DNA of 64,000 nucleotides from a virus. This document shows, in pieces, positions 7,579-18,885 of the stretch; the stretch's first letter is position 1; the number at the start of each line of letters is the position of its first letter. Where the stretch lies: the IMG/VR virus record IMGVR_UViG_3300036892_000014, positions 19,882-83,881 of that record; one strand, given 5' to 3'. The notes under the pieces are model-generated. The model saw only the letters and a program-made list of their open reading frames with translations. It was not told the DNA's origin and searched no databases. The position numbers were made by a program, and so were the translations under genes.

Positions 7579-8820
7579 ATGGCAGGCTCACCGAATCCGT
7601 CAGCAGCAAATGTAGGAAATATACTGACGGCGCAAAGCATTATGTTTGATAAGGAACTCATCCCGAACTTGAAGGGAGAAACGGATGCGTTCATCGTAGC
7701 AGCAGAAAAGCGTGTACAGCCGAACGGCGTTGGTATCAACCGCCAGTTCTTCCAGTACAACACTTTGACTGGTGATACGACACAGGTAGGAGACGGAGTT
7801 GTTGGCTCACCGGAATTCGTCGGTCAGATCAGCGCCCCGGCTCAGTTGGGCGAATGGAACAACTACACGAACTTCAGTTCGTTCGTAATTGCTTCAGCGC
7901 TTGACGACCTAGTGGGTAATTCCGCAGTCGAACTAGCCTACCAGGCTGGTCAGAGCATTTCCGAGTTGTACAGCGCCGTAGCAGACAGTGCTGGTCTAGC
8001 CTCAGTGGACACACAGGTTAACCAGAGCGCTTTGCTAGCATCGCCTTACACATTGGACTTGGCAACTGTACGTGAATTGAAGCAGCAGCTTGTTTCAAAG
8101 AACGTACTGCCGAACCGCAATGGTAAGTTCGCAGGCGTTGTATCTTCTAACGTGTTGGGCGACATCTTCAACGCAACGACAGTGAACAACTCAATCGTTG
8201 ACTTGTGGAAGTACGCAAACATCGAGAAGTTCGACAAGATCGCTGGTGCAGACCAGAAGATGGACATCGAACTCCCGGGAACGAACATCGTGCTTCGTCA
8301 GACGCCGTTCGTAACCACGACCGCTAACTACGCTGGCTCAGGTAAGATTTCTTACCGTACCTACGTAATGGGACAGTATGCCTTGATCGGCATCTGGCAG
8401 CAAGTTGGTGGAGACACCGACTTGGGTGACGGAGACTGGCGCACAATCGACTGCAAGGTCGTAGAGAGCGCACCGGCATCAGCATTTGATCCGACGGGAA
8501 CAATCGGTGGATAAAGAGTACTGTCCACTTTAAATTTTCTCTGATTGACTTGAACGCTGAAAAGCCAACAAGGGGCAAGCCGAAAGGCAGCCTGAACGAC
8601 TAAGTGAGAAAACACCCTCTGACAAAAGGGTGATGCGATAGTCTGACCATACGGGAATCAAAACCGTATGAACCGAACAGAAATGATTCGGTACACTCTG
8701 GTGAGTGTTAACAAGAGCGGGTGCTCATATAAATTTCACCAAACAGTTTCATTGCCGCCAGCACGTGGGGCTAACACCCAGCGTATGCGCTACATTGACT
8801 CTGTCCCAGCAATTCAGTAA
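7579..8820 (+). CDS. Major capsid protein, gene split by a group I intron (exons 7579-8512 and 8747-8820)
   Basis: Exon 1 alone encodes 311 residues ending FDPTGTIGG and then meets a TAA formed only in the unspliced sequence. Joining 8512 to 8747 creates a Phe codon (T+TT) and continues SLPPARGANTQRMRYIDSV to a TAA at 8818-8820, giving a 335-aa protein. The sequence and position after a scaffold-like gene fit a phage major capsid protein, with typical segments such as DLATVRELKQQL and SYRTYVMGQYALIGIW. The HK97 fold is assumed for the class, not seen. The C-terminal 24 residues depend on splicing. Confidence 0.85.
8513..8746 (+). ncRNA. Group I self-splicing intron in the capsid gene
   Basis: 234 nt with no internal ORF. 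P1: exon end GGTGGAT (8506-8512) pairs with guide GTCCACT (8523-8529), giving the hallmark U-G wobble at the 5' splice site. P3: TTTTCTC (8535-8541) with GAGAAAA (8606-8612). P7: GACTA (8598-8602) with TAGTC (8639-8643), in typical R and S contexts (CTGAACGACTA; GCGATAGTCTGACC). P8: CACCCT (8613-8618) with AGGGTG (8627-8632). P9 helices: CATACGG/CCGTATG (8648-8654/8664-8670), CCGAA/TTCGG (8673-8677/8687-8691), ACACTC/GAGTGT (8693-8698/8703-8708). The terminal G at 8746 gives in-frame exon joining. Helix order matches the family. Confidence 0.92.
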
Positions 8821-8863
8821 TAAACCTCTTCCCACGGGCTTATAATCCGTGGTATACTAATCA

Positions 8864-8898
8864 GGGGCATGCCAGAAACATGCCCCAGATTCTCTTTT
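8864..8898 (+). terminator. Intrinsic terminator after the capsid gene
   Basis: An 8-bp perfect stem, GGGGCATG (8864-8871) with CATGCCCC (8879-8886), is followed by the T-rich run AGATTCTCTTTT. A second hairpin, CCACGG/CCGTGG (8832-8837/8847-8852), precedes it. It would limit read-through from the highly expressed capsid gene into the endonuclease gene. Confidence 0.65.
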
Positions 8899-8911: not shown

Positions 8912-9403
8912 ATGTTCTATGGATTTAAGTCAAGAAGTGCTAGACAAAAGTATTATAAGAAGTGGAATAAAAGAAACAAACATCGCACTAAGAAATATGC
9001 CAAGAAGTGGTATTTAAACAATCGGGATAGGATTCTCAAGAGAGAAAAATCAAGGAAAGTCCGAACCCGAAAGTACAAGACTCGAAGACTGTGGAGAAGC
9101 CGTAATCGACTTCGAGAACTATCATATGGTTTGAAAGCCAAGTACGACATGAGTCTTTCTGGGTATAGAAAGATGTTCAAACATCAGAAAGGAAGATGTG
9201 CGATTTGCGGGAAGAAAGAGTCTATGCGGGATTCAAACACCGGAAAGATTCGTCTTCTCTGTGTAGACCACAATCATAAAACTAAAAAGATTCGTAAACT
9301 CCTATGTTGGCACTGTAACCTTGGCATAGGTATTTTCAAGGACGACTGGAGGCTATTGCAAATAGCATCTAGATATTTGAAAACGAATAAAGGAACTCGG
9401 TAA
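8912..9403 (+). CDS. HNH (endonuclease VII-like) homing endonuclease, free-standing
   Basis: 163 aa with GGAGAG upstream. The N-terminal 75 residues are very basic (Lys/Arg/Tyr-rich, probably DNA-contacting). The C-terminal half has the recombination endonuclease VII-type zinc/HNH motif: C96-A-I-C99, D119-H120-N-H122, C132-W-H-C135, then LGIGIFKDD. The enzyme would cut DNA near the intron-containing capsid gene and promote copying of its neighbourhood. It begins 165 nt after the 3' splice site, outside the intron. Its stop overlaps the next start (TAATG). Confidence 0.85.
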   Translation: MFYGFKSRSARQKYYKKWNKRNKHRTKKYAKKWYLNNRDRILKREKSRKVRTRKYKTRRLWRSRNRLRELSYGLKAKYDMSLSGYRKMFKHQKGRCAICGKKESMRDSNTGKIRLLCVDHNHKTKKIRKLLCWHCNLGIGIFKDDWRLLQIASRYLKTNKGTR

Positions 9404-13563: not shown

Positions 13564-14253
13564 ATGGCTACCGAAGCAGAACTTTCGCAACAGATAGTGG
13601 CGCTACACAAGCGCCTACTGAAGATGGAACAGGAACACACCTCGCGCAGGGGTCTGCCTGGTGAGAGGGGCGAGGCTGGTGCGCCTTCTTTTATTCCCGG
13701 GCCGCAGGGAGTACAGGGAATTCCCGGCCAATCTATTCGCGGTGAAAAAGGCGATTCAGTGCGCGGAGAAAAAGGTGAGCCAGGAATTTCTAATACACCG
13801 GGACCCCCTGGGGCGAACGGGGCAGACGGAAGAGATGGCATCGATGGAAAGAACGGTGTAGATGGAAAATCCGGCAGAGACGGAAAGAACGGAGCGGACG
13901 GGAAAAACGGCGTAGATGGAAAAGATGGTACCGATGGAAAGAACGGTGTAGACGGAAAGCCGGGCATAGACGGTAAGAACGGAGTAGACGGGAAAGATAG
14001 CATCGACGGAAAAGACGGTATCAATGGAAAGAATGGCATCGACGGAAACCCCGGCACAAATGGGAAGAACGGTCTTGACGGCAAAGATGGTGTCAACGGT
14101 AAAGATGGTGTCGATGGCAAAGACGGCATCGGAACACCAGGCCCCCGTGGACCAGCTGGAGACATTTCTGCTGCCCTGTCCAACTGCGAAAAGTATGTAC
14201 AGACAGAGTTAGCTGCTTTCAGAAAAGAAATTCTTAGTCTTTTAGCCAAGTGA
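13564..14253 (+). CDS. Collagen-like repeat protein
   Basis: 229 aa. After a 35-residue helical start (probable trimerisation segment), Gly-X-Y triplets run from about residue 29 to 200. They include classical GPPGANG/GERGEAG triplets and a long block alternating GKD/GKN and GVD/GID. The C-terminal 30 residues are again helical (CEKYVQTELAAFRKEILSLL). Phage collagen-like proteins form trimeric fibres or stabilisers. DNA is correspondingly repetitive, so copy number may vary among relatives. Confidence 0.88.
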   Translation: MATEAELSQQIVALHKRLLKMEQEHTSRRGLPGERGEAGAPSFIPGPQGVQGIPGQSIRGEKGDSVRGEKGEPGISNTPGPPGANGADGRDGIDGKNGVDGKSGRDGKNGADGKNGVDGKDGTDGKNGVDGKPGIDGKNGVDGKDSIDGKDGINGKNGIDGNPGTNGKNGLDGKDGVNGKDGVDGKDGIGTPGPRGPAGDISAALSNCEKYVQTELAAFRKEILSLLAK

Positions 14254-14930: not shown

Positions 14931-17930
14931 ATGGCAACAGCACCCCCGAATTCAAGCAAGCCGACGACAGCAATTCCCGTTGCGGGAGACTACAACGTAA
15001 CTGCACCCGTTCTTATTGACGGGCAGGCTACTGCGCTGCAAGTCGATGTAAACGGTAACCTGAAGACGACGAGCACTGGCGGCGGCGGTGGAAATGTAAA
15101 TCTTACGGGTATCAACGGCACCGCTCCGTCACTGACGAATCCCCTCGCTGTAGAACTGAGCGACGGCACGAATCCGCTAGGCGTGTCGGGCAATCCTCTT
15201 TATGTTACAGGCACTATTAGTGCGTCGAACCCAAGCGTTGGTGCGACAGGTGTGGCTGCTCCGACATCTGCGACTGAGATAGGTATTATTGTTGCCGGTG
15301 ATCTCGAAGGTGTGAGTTCTTCCAACCCTCTTCCGGTAAGCGGTACGGTAGCAGTTTCAAACTTCCCAGCGACGCAACCAGTCAGCGGAACGGTAACCGC
15401 CGTACAACCTACTGGAGCAAATCTTCACGTTGACGTGGATAACTCTGTTGCTGTTACCGGAACTTTCTTCCAGGCAACACAGCCTGTAAGTGGAACCGTA
15501 GCAGTTTCAAACTTCCCGGGAACACAACCTGTTTCAGGTACAGTCGTTGCAGAGATAGAAGGTCATGCAGGCGCGACACTGGACAGTGCTGCGGGCACTC
15601 CGAACGCTCAAGCGGTTACCGTTCAAGGTAACGCTAGCGGCGTCCCTGTTCCGGTAAGTGGAAGCGTAACGGTAACGCAAGCAACGGGCGCAAATCTTCA
15701 CGTTGATGTGGACAATTTCCCGGCAACGCAACCAGTCAGTGGAACGGTAGCCGTTTCGAACTTCCCAGCAACACAGCCTGTTAGCGGAACTGTCGTTGCA
15801 GAAATTGAAGGTCACGCTGGAGCAACATTGGACAGTGCTGCGGGTACCCCGAACGCTCAAGCAGTTACGATTCAAGGTAATGCGAGCGGTGTACCTGTTC
15901 CGATATCAGGAACTGTTACGGCCACGGTCGCAAGCACGACGATCACAGGCAACGTTACGGTTGTTCAACCTACGGGAACCAATCTTCATACAGTTGTTGA
16001 TTCGGGAACCATCACGGCTGTCACAGCGATCACGAACGCTCTACCTGCGGGTACGAACACCATCGGGAAGGTGGACATCCTCGGCAACGCGGGCGCGATT
16101 CTAGACGGGACAGCGGGAACACCATCGGTTGGCGTCTTGACCGTTCAAGGTGTTTCAGGCGGAACAGCGCAGCCAGTTTCAGGAACGGTAGTCGCAGAAA
16201 TCGAAGGTCACGCAGGAGCGACACTCGATAGCGCTGCGGGTACTCCGAACACACAGGCCGTAACGATTCAGGGTAATGCAAGCGGAGTCCCGGTTCCTAT
16301 TTCTGGTAGCGTGACAGCTACGGTAGCCAGCACCACGATCACAGGCAATGTAACAGTCGTACAGCCGACGGGTTCGAACCTTCACGTAGACATTGACAAC
16401 ACGGTTCCCGTAACCTTGGCATCAACGACGATCACCGGTACGGTCGCGGTAGACGGCGCACTCACGAATAATAACGCAGCACCAACCGCGACGCTTCAAG
16501 GAATTCTTGGAGCAATCGCGGAAACTGCGTACAGCACGGTTACTTATACGACAGGCGATATGGTTTTGCCTGTTACAGATTTGCACGGCGCACTCAACTT
16601 TGATCTACAAGCCTACGCGGGAACCGCGCTAGGTGCAGGTTCCAACTACGGAACATCACCGGGCGCTGTAAACGTCATGGGTGTAAACGCCTTCATTACG
16701 AACACACCAGCGTTTACGCTTGCTAGCACCACGATCACAGGTACGGTAGCCGTTGACGGGGCACTGACGAATAACAATGCTGCGCCTACCGCAACGCTTC
16801 AGGGCGTCCTAGCCGCGATTGCGGAAACTGCGTACAGCACAGTCACCTACACGACGGGAGATATGGTTCTTCCGGTCACCGACTTGCATGGCGCTCTAAA
16901 TCAAGACCTCCAAGCTGTTGCAGGTGTAGCACTCGGCGCAACGGCTGTAACCACTTATGGCGGCACCCCTGCTGCCGTGAACGTTCCTGCGGTGAACGCG
17001 GCGATTACGAACACGCCTGCGGTTACTCTGACGAGTACGACGATTACGGGAACGTCTACGATTGCGGGAAACAAGACGAACAACAACGCAGTCCCTGGCG
17101 CTACGAATCTCGGCGTGTTGCCAGCTATCGCTGCGACGGTGTATACGACCAACACTTATACCAACGCCGACCAAGTTGCGCTCGTAACGGATTTGAACGG
17201 CGCTATCAATACTGATTTACAGGCTGTTGCTGGAAATGCCGTTGTTACGGCCACGACCGGCGTTCAGTTGGTGGGTATCGAAGGTCACGGCGGCGCAGCA
17301 CTCGACGCGGTTACGACCGCAGCCACAGCCCCAGTGAACGGTCTCGCCGTACTTGACGTGTACACAGCAACCGTGCCCGTCTTGACCACGGGTCAGTCTC
17401 TCGCATTGCAAGCCGACACAACTGGCGGACAGTACGTAAACCAAGAAGGTCGCAAGGCAACGTTTGCGTGCCAAATAATTTCTGGTACCGCAGTTTCAGG
17501 CGGTAACTTTGTTTTAGTTGGATCGGCCACTAAGGTCATTCGTATCACGCGTGTAGTATTTTCTGGTTATGCAACGGCTGCTGGGTCTACTTCTGTTGGC
17601 TGCCAAATCTCCACGCCGTATACGGGTGGAACGTCATCTACAACCGGTACCCAAATTGGACCATTCGATAGTGCTAGTGCTGCGGCCACCGCCACGAGAT
17701 TAGTATACACCGTAGCTCCCACTGGCGGGGGATCACCGCAGTCATATCCGATTACTTTTAATTACACTTTCGCGGCAGTTGCAACGGGGAACATCTATAC
17801 TTGGGATTTTGGTAACCGCGCCGCGGGTTGTCCGGTCTTGCGCGGTACGTCGCAGATTTTTGCATTGTTTATTTCTGTTGCGCCAGCAACTTGCACGTAT
17901 ACTTGCGAATTCGAATGGACAGAGGAATAA
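14931..17930 (+). CDS. Large repetitive surface/fibre protein
   Basis: 999 aa, Thr/Val/Ala/Gly-rich and beta-prone. Residues about 135-430 carry many copies of VSNFPATQPVSGTV-like strands and three copies of EIEGHAGATLDSAAGTPN. Residues about 495-770 hold three tandem units of about 100 residues (TTITGTVAVDGALTNNNAAP; ETAYSTVTYTTGDMVLPVTD). The C-terminal 170 residues (from GRKATFACQI to FEWTEE) form a domain shared with the next gene. This composition fits a trimeric beta-structured fibre. Receptor or decoration function is inferred. Confidence 0.65.
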   Translation: MATAPPNSSKPTTAIPVAGDYNVTAPVLIDGQATALQVDVNGNLKTTSTGGGGGNVNLTGINGTAPSLTNPLAVELSDGTNPLGVSGNPLYVTGTISASNPSVGATGVAAPTSATEIGIIVAGDLEGVSSSNPLPVSGTVAVSNFPATQPVSGTVTAVQPTGANLHVDVDNSVAVTGTFFQATQPVSGTVAVSNFPGTQPVSGTVVAEIEGHAGATLDSAAGTPNAQAVTVQGNASGVPVPVSGSVTVTQATGANLHVDVDNFPATQPVSGTVAVSNFPATQPVSGTVVAEIEGHAGATLDSAAGTPNAQAVTIQGNASGVPVPISGTVTATVASTTITGNVTVVQPTGTNLHTVVDSGTITAVTAITNALPAGTNTIGKVDILGNAGAILDGTAGTPSVGVLTVQGVSGGTAQPVSGTVVAEIEGHAGATLDSAAGTPNTQAVTIQGNASGVPVPISGSVTATVASTTITGNVTVVQPTGSNLHVDIDNTVPVTLASTTITGTVAVDGALTNNNAAPTATLQGILGAIAETAYSTVTYTTGDMVLPVTDLHGALNFDLQAYAGTALGAGSNYGTSPGAVNVMGVNAFITNTPAFTLASTTITGTVAVDGALTNNNAAPTATLQGVLAAIAETAYSTVTYTTGDMVLPVTDLHGALNQDLQAVAGVALGATAVTTYGGTPAAVNVPAVNAAITNTPAVTLTSTTITGTSTIAGNKTNNNAVPGATNLGVLPAIAATVYTTNTYTNADQVALVTDLNGAINTDLQAVAGNAVVTATTGVQLVGIEGHGGAALDAVTTAATAPVNGLAVLDVYTATVPVLTTGQSLALQADTTGGQYVNQEGRKATFACQIISGTAVSGGNFVLVGSATKVIRITRVVFSGYATAAGSTSVGCQISTPYTGGTSSTTGTQIGPFDSASAAATATRLVYTVAPTGGGSPQSYPITFNYTFAAVATGNIYTWDFGNRAAGCPVLRGTSQIFALFISVAPATCTYTCEFEWTEE
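15346..17225 (+). repeat. Intragenic repeats within the fibre-like gene
   Basis: DNA repeats underlie the protein repeats. Copies coding for EIEGHAGATLDSAAGTPN lie near 15550, 15795 and 16195. The approx. 300-bp units coding for TTITGTVAVDGALTNNN begin near 16425, 16730 and, more diverged, 17035. Adjacent copies remain similar at the nucleotide level, so recombination could change copy number. Confidence 0.75.
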
Positions 17931-17931
17931 A

Positions 17932-18885
17932 ATGGCAATTATATCGGAAAATATTCAATCCTACATTCTTAAAGGTGACGGCGTAAGTACGGTAGGTACC
18001 ATCAATCTTGGATACGGTCCCCCGTTCGCCACCTTCGTGCAGGCGATTCAGCAGAACGGCAGTGTAGATGTTTCCTCTAACGTGTCGTCCATCGTTCTAA
18101 CTGGCAGCACCATAACTGTCAATTTCGTTGCAACATTTTCTTACACTGTTGTGATATTTATAAATACCGTACCTGAGACACTTGTTGTTTCTGGCAGCGT
18201 AGCCGCTACAGGGTCTTCGGGCGGGGTTATGGATACCGTTATAACACCTGCCACTGCTCCGACGAATGCTTTGGCGACTCTAGGGGTTTACTATTCTACC
18301 CCTCCCGTTCTAACTACGGGTCAATCTGTGGTGGATCAGACAGACACCACGGGCTCGCACTATGTGAACGTTGAAGGCAGAAAGGCTACGTATCGTGCGG
18401 CTACATTCAGTTACCAACCGACAGGCAGCGGAACCCAACCTATGTTATCGATTAGGGGTTCCGCGACAAAAACAATTCGTGTCACGCGACTTCAGTTTTC
18501 AATCGGATATACTACGGGACTTATCGGTGGAACGTTACTCATACTCCAGAGATTTAGTGTACTATCTGGCGGAACGCCTACCGCCCTTACCGCGGGTTCG
18601 AATGATATCAATAATCCTGCGGCTACTGCACTGGTGCAGACTTGGTCACCGCTGGCTACGACGGCCACGACGGTTGGCGGGCAACTTCAGATTCAGAAAT
18701 ATAACCTCGCTACCGAAGCCGTAGGCGCAGGCGACAACACGATGCCGCCGTATGAGTGGCAGTTCGGAGATCACTCTGCACAGAGCATTGTTCTGCGTGG
18801 CACGAGCGATTACTTCGGACTGATGATGCTCAGTGTTCCTACAGCGCCCCTAGTTAATTTTACGATTGAGTGGACAGAAGAATGA
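17932..18885 (+). CDS. Surface protein sharing the fibre protein's C-terminal domain
   Basis: 317 aa. The ATG at 17932 was chosen for AGAGGAA upstream. Residues 1-95 form a short beta-rich start (MAIISENIQSYILKGDGVST). From about residue 110 it parallels the preceding protein: PVLTTGQS, GRKATYRAATF, GSATKTIRVTRLQFS, EWQFGDHSAQSIVLRGTS and terminal IEWTEE. It is evidently a paralogue by domain duplication. Both genes end alike and lie side by side, so they probably occupy related sites on the virion. Confidence 0.65.
   Translation: MAIISENIQSYILKGDGVSTVGTINLGYGPPFATFVQAIQQNGSVDVSSNVSSIVLTGSTITVNFVATFSYTVVIFINTVPETLVVSGSVAATGSSGGVMDTVITPATAPTNALATLGVYYSTPPVLTTGQSVVDQTDTTGSHYVNVEGRKATYRAATFSYQPTGSGTQPMLSIRGSATKTIRVTRLQFSIGYTTGLIGGTLLILQRFSVLSGGTPTALTAGSNDINNPAATALVQTWSPLATTATTVGGQLQIQKYNLATEAVGAGDNTMPPYEWQFGDHSAQSIVLRGTSDYFGLMMLSVPTAPLVNFTIEWTEE

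Follow-up and report, generated by a model that had tools for sequence, protein, structure and literature searches.

Does the major capsid protein (MCP) gene of this uncultured soil phage end where its reading frame meets a stop codon, or does it continue beyond an intron? The locus was analyzed in a window of 64,000 nt, which corresponds to positions 19882-83881 of a virus record of 83,881 bases (a metagenomic contig). The genes in the window are arranged in the order terminase-portal-MCP, and the product of the first MCP exon shows similarity with the PHROG major head protein family phrog_1357 (E = 3.3e-6). The MCP-like ORF (7579-8514) runs into a TAA codon at 8512-8514, so that, as the sequence-only reading had pointed out, the unspliced gene stops at once. 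Elsewhere in the window, the virion gene region contains a gene for a protein with collagen-like Gly-x-y repeats (13564-14253), and a long ORF of repetitive sequence (14931-17930), in which PVSGTVAVSNFPATQ blocks recur, likely encodes a tail or fibre protein.

To define the gene, 60 MCP relatives were obtained in a scan of IMG/VR. Many of these have no interruption at the site, with identities of about 60-93%, and the intronless relatives contain the sequence GTIGG-WCSYKFHQTV-SLPPARG...DSVPAIQ. All 16 intronless homologues compared end in DSVPAIQ or in a closely similar sequence, which refutes the possibility that homologous capsid proteins end at TGTIGG; residues W312, Y315 and F317-V321 are invariant in these 16 sequences. 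When combinations of 5' and 3' ends that keep the frame open were scanned against an intronless homologue, the join T8512/A8513...G8719/G8720 ranked first. The spliced MCP comprises 344 aa, of which 329 (95.6%) are identical to those of the intronless homologue L001 without a gap, and an intron with the same boundary (GTGGAT/AAAG...AGCG/GGTGCT) was found in the relative L027. A structural model was of no use here, as AlphaFold gave a pLDDT of only 28 for the intronless MCP.

These data change the 3' boundary that had been proposed earlier. Splicing to 8747, with an intron of 234 nt and a restored C-terminus of 24 residues, would remove nine conserved residues, and the 8746/8747 join touches the invariant stretch. 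Since WCSYKFHQTV is encoded just upstream of 8746/8747, the true join is T8512/GG8720, the intron is 207 nt long, and exon 2 supplies 33 residues (WCSYKFHQTVSLPPARGANTQRMRYIDSVPAIQ). The predicted C-terminus ending in DSVPAIQ was restored as expected and matches the intronless homologues. It should be noted that junction calling gave a small bonus to introns preceded by T and terminated by G; therefore, the T/G rule is not independent evidence, with the exception of the joins fixed by intronless alleles, including that of the window. The coordinates of all features are given in Table 1.

Table 1. Features of the MCP locus in the window and intron positions in the MCP gene of the lineage
Feature	Position	Strand	Description and basis
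Exon 1, MCP gene	7579..8512	+	Codons 1-311 and the initial base of the Trp312 codon
Group I intron	8513..8719	+	207 nt, without its own ORF; junction 8512/8719, identity with L001, covariance model match
Exon 2, MCP gene	8720..8820	+	33 residues WCSYKFHQTV...DSVPAIQ, then TAA; contiguous in intronless relatives
P1	8506..8529	+	Pairing of GGUGGAU in the exon (8506-8512) and GUCCACU in the internal guide (8523-8529); 7 pairs, wobble U8512.G8523
P3	8535..8612	+	8535-8541/8606-8612; compensatory changes in all 7 pairs, 99.6% of cells paired
P4	8549-8552/8569-8572	+	Covariation
P5	8556-8557/8564-8565	+	Covariation
P6	8573-8576/8590-8593 and 8579-8581/8586-8588	+	Covariation
P7, guanosine site	8596..8644	+	GACUA 8598-8602/UAGUC 8639-8643, A8596-U8644 across bulge C8597
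P8	8613..8632	+	8613-8618/8627-8632; compensatory changes; loop columns misaligned in some rows
P9	8648-8654/8664-8670	+	96% paired, both-side changes in 6/7 pairs
P9.1	8672-8692	+	Folding, presence in most relatives
P9.2	8693-8708	+	Folding, presence in most relatives
Putative free-standing Endo VII-motif (DHHRN-type) endonuclease gene	8912..9403	+	Pfam, PHROG, motif
Intron sites in MCP genes of the lineage	residues 22, 29, 31, 206, 274, 290, 309, 312 (window), 315, 317, 318, 321, 329, 337, 340		

As for the RNA structure, 37 small MCP introns were aligned and the P3-P9 structure was drawn on the window sequence. Core pairing was found in 95.7% of the cells (77.0% in shuffled sequences and 36-43% in slid controls), with changes on both sides in 33 of the 39 core pairs. 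In the P4-P6 region, 98-100% of the cells were paired and 11 of 13 pairs had changed on both sides. P7 was paired in 100% of the cells and forms a pseudoknot with P3; at the pair that spans its bulge, 18 introns have A-U and 19 have G-C (A[C]GACUA/UAGUCU and G[A]GACUA/UAGUCC, respectively), and the variants GACUA/UAGUC, GACUG/CAGUC and GAGCA/UGCUC occur among the introns. The P1 helix was assessed by permuting the exons: introns form on average 4.67 pairs with their own sites, compared with a mean of 3.13 and a maximum of 3.72 in 500 permutations. The folded strand differs from shuffled sequences with z = -4.3. The covariance model R1, from which P7 was left out, matches the window at 8533-8671 with 143 bits, the window sequence being included in the model. 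Every core pair is intact in the window intron, its last base is G8719, and its exact removal restores the reading frame. Group I introns of subgroup IA have P7.1/P7.2 pairings between P7 and P3; the window intron does not belong to IA, because it has only three bases between GACUA and the 3' strand of P3.

The earlier prediction of a small, ORF-less group I intron in a major capsid gene thus holds, and P1, including its U.G wobble next to the splice junction, as well as P3, P7, P8 and P9 lie where they had been drawn, with P4, P5, P6, P9.1 and P9.2 in addition. The recommended search with the Rfam model RF00028 turned out differently: the window intron was not matched and was not scored at all. 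In the control, the T4 introns td (40.3 bits) and nrdB (35.7 bits) also fell below the 50-bit cut-off, and only one T4 intron exceeded it; therefore, the negative Rfam result for the window intron says little. Below the cut-off, RF00028 matched larger introns at site 94 in the MCP gene of relatives (E = 9e-9, 1e-5 and 7e-5).

Two readings compete with a functional intron at this locus. The MCP gene could simply end at 8514 after TIGG, the P1 hairpin with the T-rich tract being a terminator and the rest intergenic. The frame indeed stops there, and the hairpin at 8506-8529 was listed as terminator-like; however, each of the 16 intronless homologues passes W312 and FHQTV and continues up to the DSVPAIQ-type end, the 101 nt downstream encode exactly the tail of the homologues, and a better-placed terminator-like stem is located at 8864-8886. 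We give this explanation practically no credence. It is also very improbable, if slightly less so, that the intron is decayed or inactive and that the phage is defective or its capsid protein truncated. The metagenomic origin of the sequence and the blindness of Rfam to the window intron would be compatible with decay, but the core pairs, the terminal G and P1 are all intact, and the MCP frame and the 95.6% identity are preserved on both sides. On the basis of sequence comparison, the region 8513-8719 is almost certainly a genuine compact, HEG-less group I intron.

The boundaries, the core and the intronless alleles are read directly from the sequences; the splicing chemistry and its efficiency are predictions. 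Exogenous guanosine would bind the G-C pair of P7 and attack after U8512, which is held by P1 as U.G; exon 1 would then attack after G8719, and the ligated late MCP mRNA would yield the full capsid protein of 344 residues.

The MCP genes of the lineage were further compared by spliced alignment of the relatives combined with R1. The observed distribution comprises 46 introns of the R1 family at 15 MCP sites, with up to four introns per gene (four each in L051 and L053). Spliced alignment also suggested introns at residues 5, 8 and 326, as well as one at 206 in L056, where the contig begins; these were left out as artefacts or as incomplete. Large intron copies at sites 22, 31 and 206 contain ORFs that were judged by eye to be HNH-like. 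In addition, positions 93-94 and 121 are occupied by another type of intron, which contains LAGLIDADG ORFs and has GACUG/CAGUC as its P7. These introns (residues 93-121, boundaries approximate) were detected in L042, L046, L051, L053, L054, L057 and L058, and R1 misses them. Inteins are disfavoured as an explanation of the large inserts at 93-121: most of the inserts have a length not divisible by three, and three inserts match RF00028. The final 36 codons contain nine of the 18 sites (93 and 94 counted apart); if sites were placed uniformly, this would have a p of about 3e-5, the sites not being independent events.

All 24 places found by R1 in 17 records (1.43 Mb) are in the MCP gene, although the model was built from MCP introns and may miss other subtypes; its matches on the MCP introns are by construction. 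Two of the R1 places, at the two ends of the contig G007, seem to be parts of a single intron in a circular genome, and the intron of the MCP gene is the single R1 intron in the window. The lineage also contains introns of 164-174 nt (L035:4837-5000, L053:2858-3025, L028:5093-5261, L008:4829-4999 and L011:5093-5266), which keep the full P3-P9 core without P9.1 and P9.2. The Azoarcus intron, at about 205 nt, is among the smallest natural ones, and these introns are smaller.

Two observations concern the surroundings of the gene and the lineage as a whole. A promoter-like sequence, TTGACA-17-TTAAGAT, is located just past the MCP stop codon in about 30 relatives, with an inverted repeat (GGGTTGCAACC) in the spacer; the window has a variant (TTCCCA...TATACT) at this place (8829-8858). 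A search for lineage matches in host genomes gave one match, L183 (CABMCB010000059.1), a phage contig of the lineage with an MCP 88% identical that was binned in an "uncultured archaeon" genome; this is probably a stray virus contig and was not taken as evidence of the host.

When the sites were mapped on a tree of the 46 introns, 23 changes of site label were counted (at least 14 are needed; 27-34 in shuffles). Introns that share a site are mostly related to one another, as expected from homing or descent. However, introns of different sites are united in several starred clades, namely 290 with 318 (100/99), 29 with 337 (99/97), 22 with 31 (98/97) and 315/317/321/329/340/274 (96/99), and therefore some movement from one site to another has also taken place. 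Grouping by genome gave no clear signal (20 changes; shuffled mean 22.3, minimum 18). We infer that the MCP gene is a hot spot, with related introns moving to the same site elsewhere and to new sites within the gene; both reverse splicing and loose endonuclease targeting would fit the site jumps.

A core-pattern scan of IMG/VR followed by R1 revealed at least 123 distinct introns in contigs outside the lineage. When 99 stretches of upstream exon were compared with PHROG, major head families matched 16, 9 and 3 of them (these may overlap), ribonucleotide reductase and a tRNA ligase matched one each, and among the matches listed the other named ones are mostly endonucleases. The downstream exon stretches agree with the upstream ones, with three P22 coat proteins among the matches listed. 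Capsid enrichment outside the lineage may be biased, as the scan pattern was derived from MCP introns. Among 50,697 phage records, there was a single match, MW202674.1 (Caudoviricetes ctn9Y15; positions 15378-18497, L184 in our set), in which a P22-type coat gene is split by an intron with an R1 score of 87 bits. Its annotation contains two P22 coat fragments and a "hypothetical protein" inside the group I intron, and the coat gene is contiguous in the intronless near-twin MW202520.1. The hexamer GTGGAT precedes both this intron and that of the window, the host genes being unrelated. The family appears to settle preferentially in capsid genes, including unrelated ones.

How the introns spread can be considered from two sides. 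The gene that follows the MCP gene, starting 192 nt past the intron, encodes a protein similar to Pfam Endonuclease_7 (6e-17, residues 75-157 of 163) and PHROG endonuclease VII (6e-25), with a C-terminal motif CAIC...DHNH...R...CWHCN (CX2C - DHxH - R - CX2C - N) like that of F-CphI. This candidate is a possible homing helper: in collaborative homing, as for F-CphI and psbA, it would cut intronless MCP alleles and the intron would be carried along. The proximity of the two elements and the C-terminal position of the motif, which is the arrangement described for the homing clade of F-CphI as opposed to the resolvase clade, are in line with this scheme, as is the presence of the nuclease at six of the eight loci that have introns at 312/315 and enough flank (counted after the fact). 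However, across 47 loci the nuclease is equally common beside intronless and intron-bearing MCP C-termini (9/25 and 9/22, respectively; Fisher p = 0.77), and its association with C-terminal introns was rejected as not significant. Collaborative homing is a tenable but doubtful scheme. We hold an equally tentative view of reverse splicing, in which free intron RNA would enter abundant MCP mRNA at 4-7 guide-matching bases, followed by reverse transcription and recombination. The site-mixing clades, the number of site-label changes and GTGGAT before both the window and P22-coat introns favor this pathway. On the other hand, intron-encoded nucleases of relaxed specificity could equally place introns ectopically, the one shared hexamer may reflect coincidence or guide drift, and a 2014 review noted that reverse splicing as a route of spread had no direct experimental support (PMC3984707). 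The most far-reaching proposal, that introns dedicated to capsid genes and as small as 164 nt have spread over at least 15 positions of one phage gene and between capsid genes that are unrelated, with the guide directing their reverse splicing into the abundant late capsid mRNA, seems to us rather unlikely, more so than either route taken by itself.

Comparison with known systems places the window intron among several precedents. In the Cluster J mycobacteriophage LittleE, splicing of a capsid intron was demonstrated by RT-PCR and protein sequencing (PMC3706429). That intron is likewise group I-like, lies in the major capsid gene, and has U before it and G at its end; however, it is 819 bp long, contains a homing endonuclease and occupies one site in an unrelated phage, whereas the window intron is HEG-less and comes from a lineage in which at least 15 sites are occupied. 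Small group I introns averaging about 206 nt, thus close in size to that of the window, are present in Jug phages, where metatranscriptomes support 37 of the 76 predicted (PMC12363816); the hosts named for them are terL, nrdD and DNA polymerase genes, whereas the matches in our 17 records are confined to the MCP gene. Cyanophage S-PM2 has a psbA intron and the free-standing F-CphI (PMC6083498). It resembles our locus in that an intron adjoins a free-standing Endo VII-motif endonuclease gene, but the host gene differs, and the nuclease described here is known from sequence and lacks an association over the loci compared. The intron of MW202674.1 belongs to the same family by its R1 score and has the same 5' exon hexamer; it differs in size (about 268 nt) and in its unrelated capsid gene.

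A single intron in a capsid gene has precedents (PMC3706429), and what is new is a multi-site, capsid-centred intron family. Rfam-based annotation misses introns of this family, and in contigs of this kind a capsid gene may wrongly be annotated as truncated or as split. With at least 15 occupied positions, close intronless alleles and some copies with HNH or LAGLIDADG ORFs, the MCP genes of this lineage represent an unusually dense data set on intron spread.
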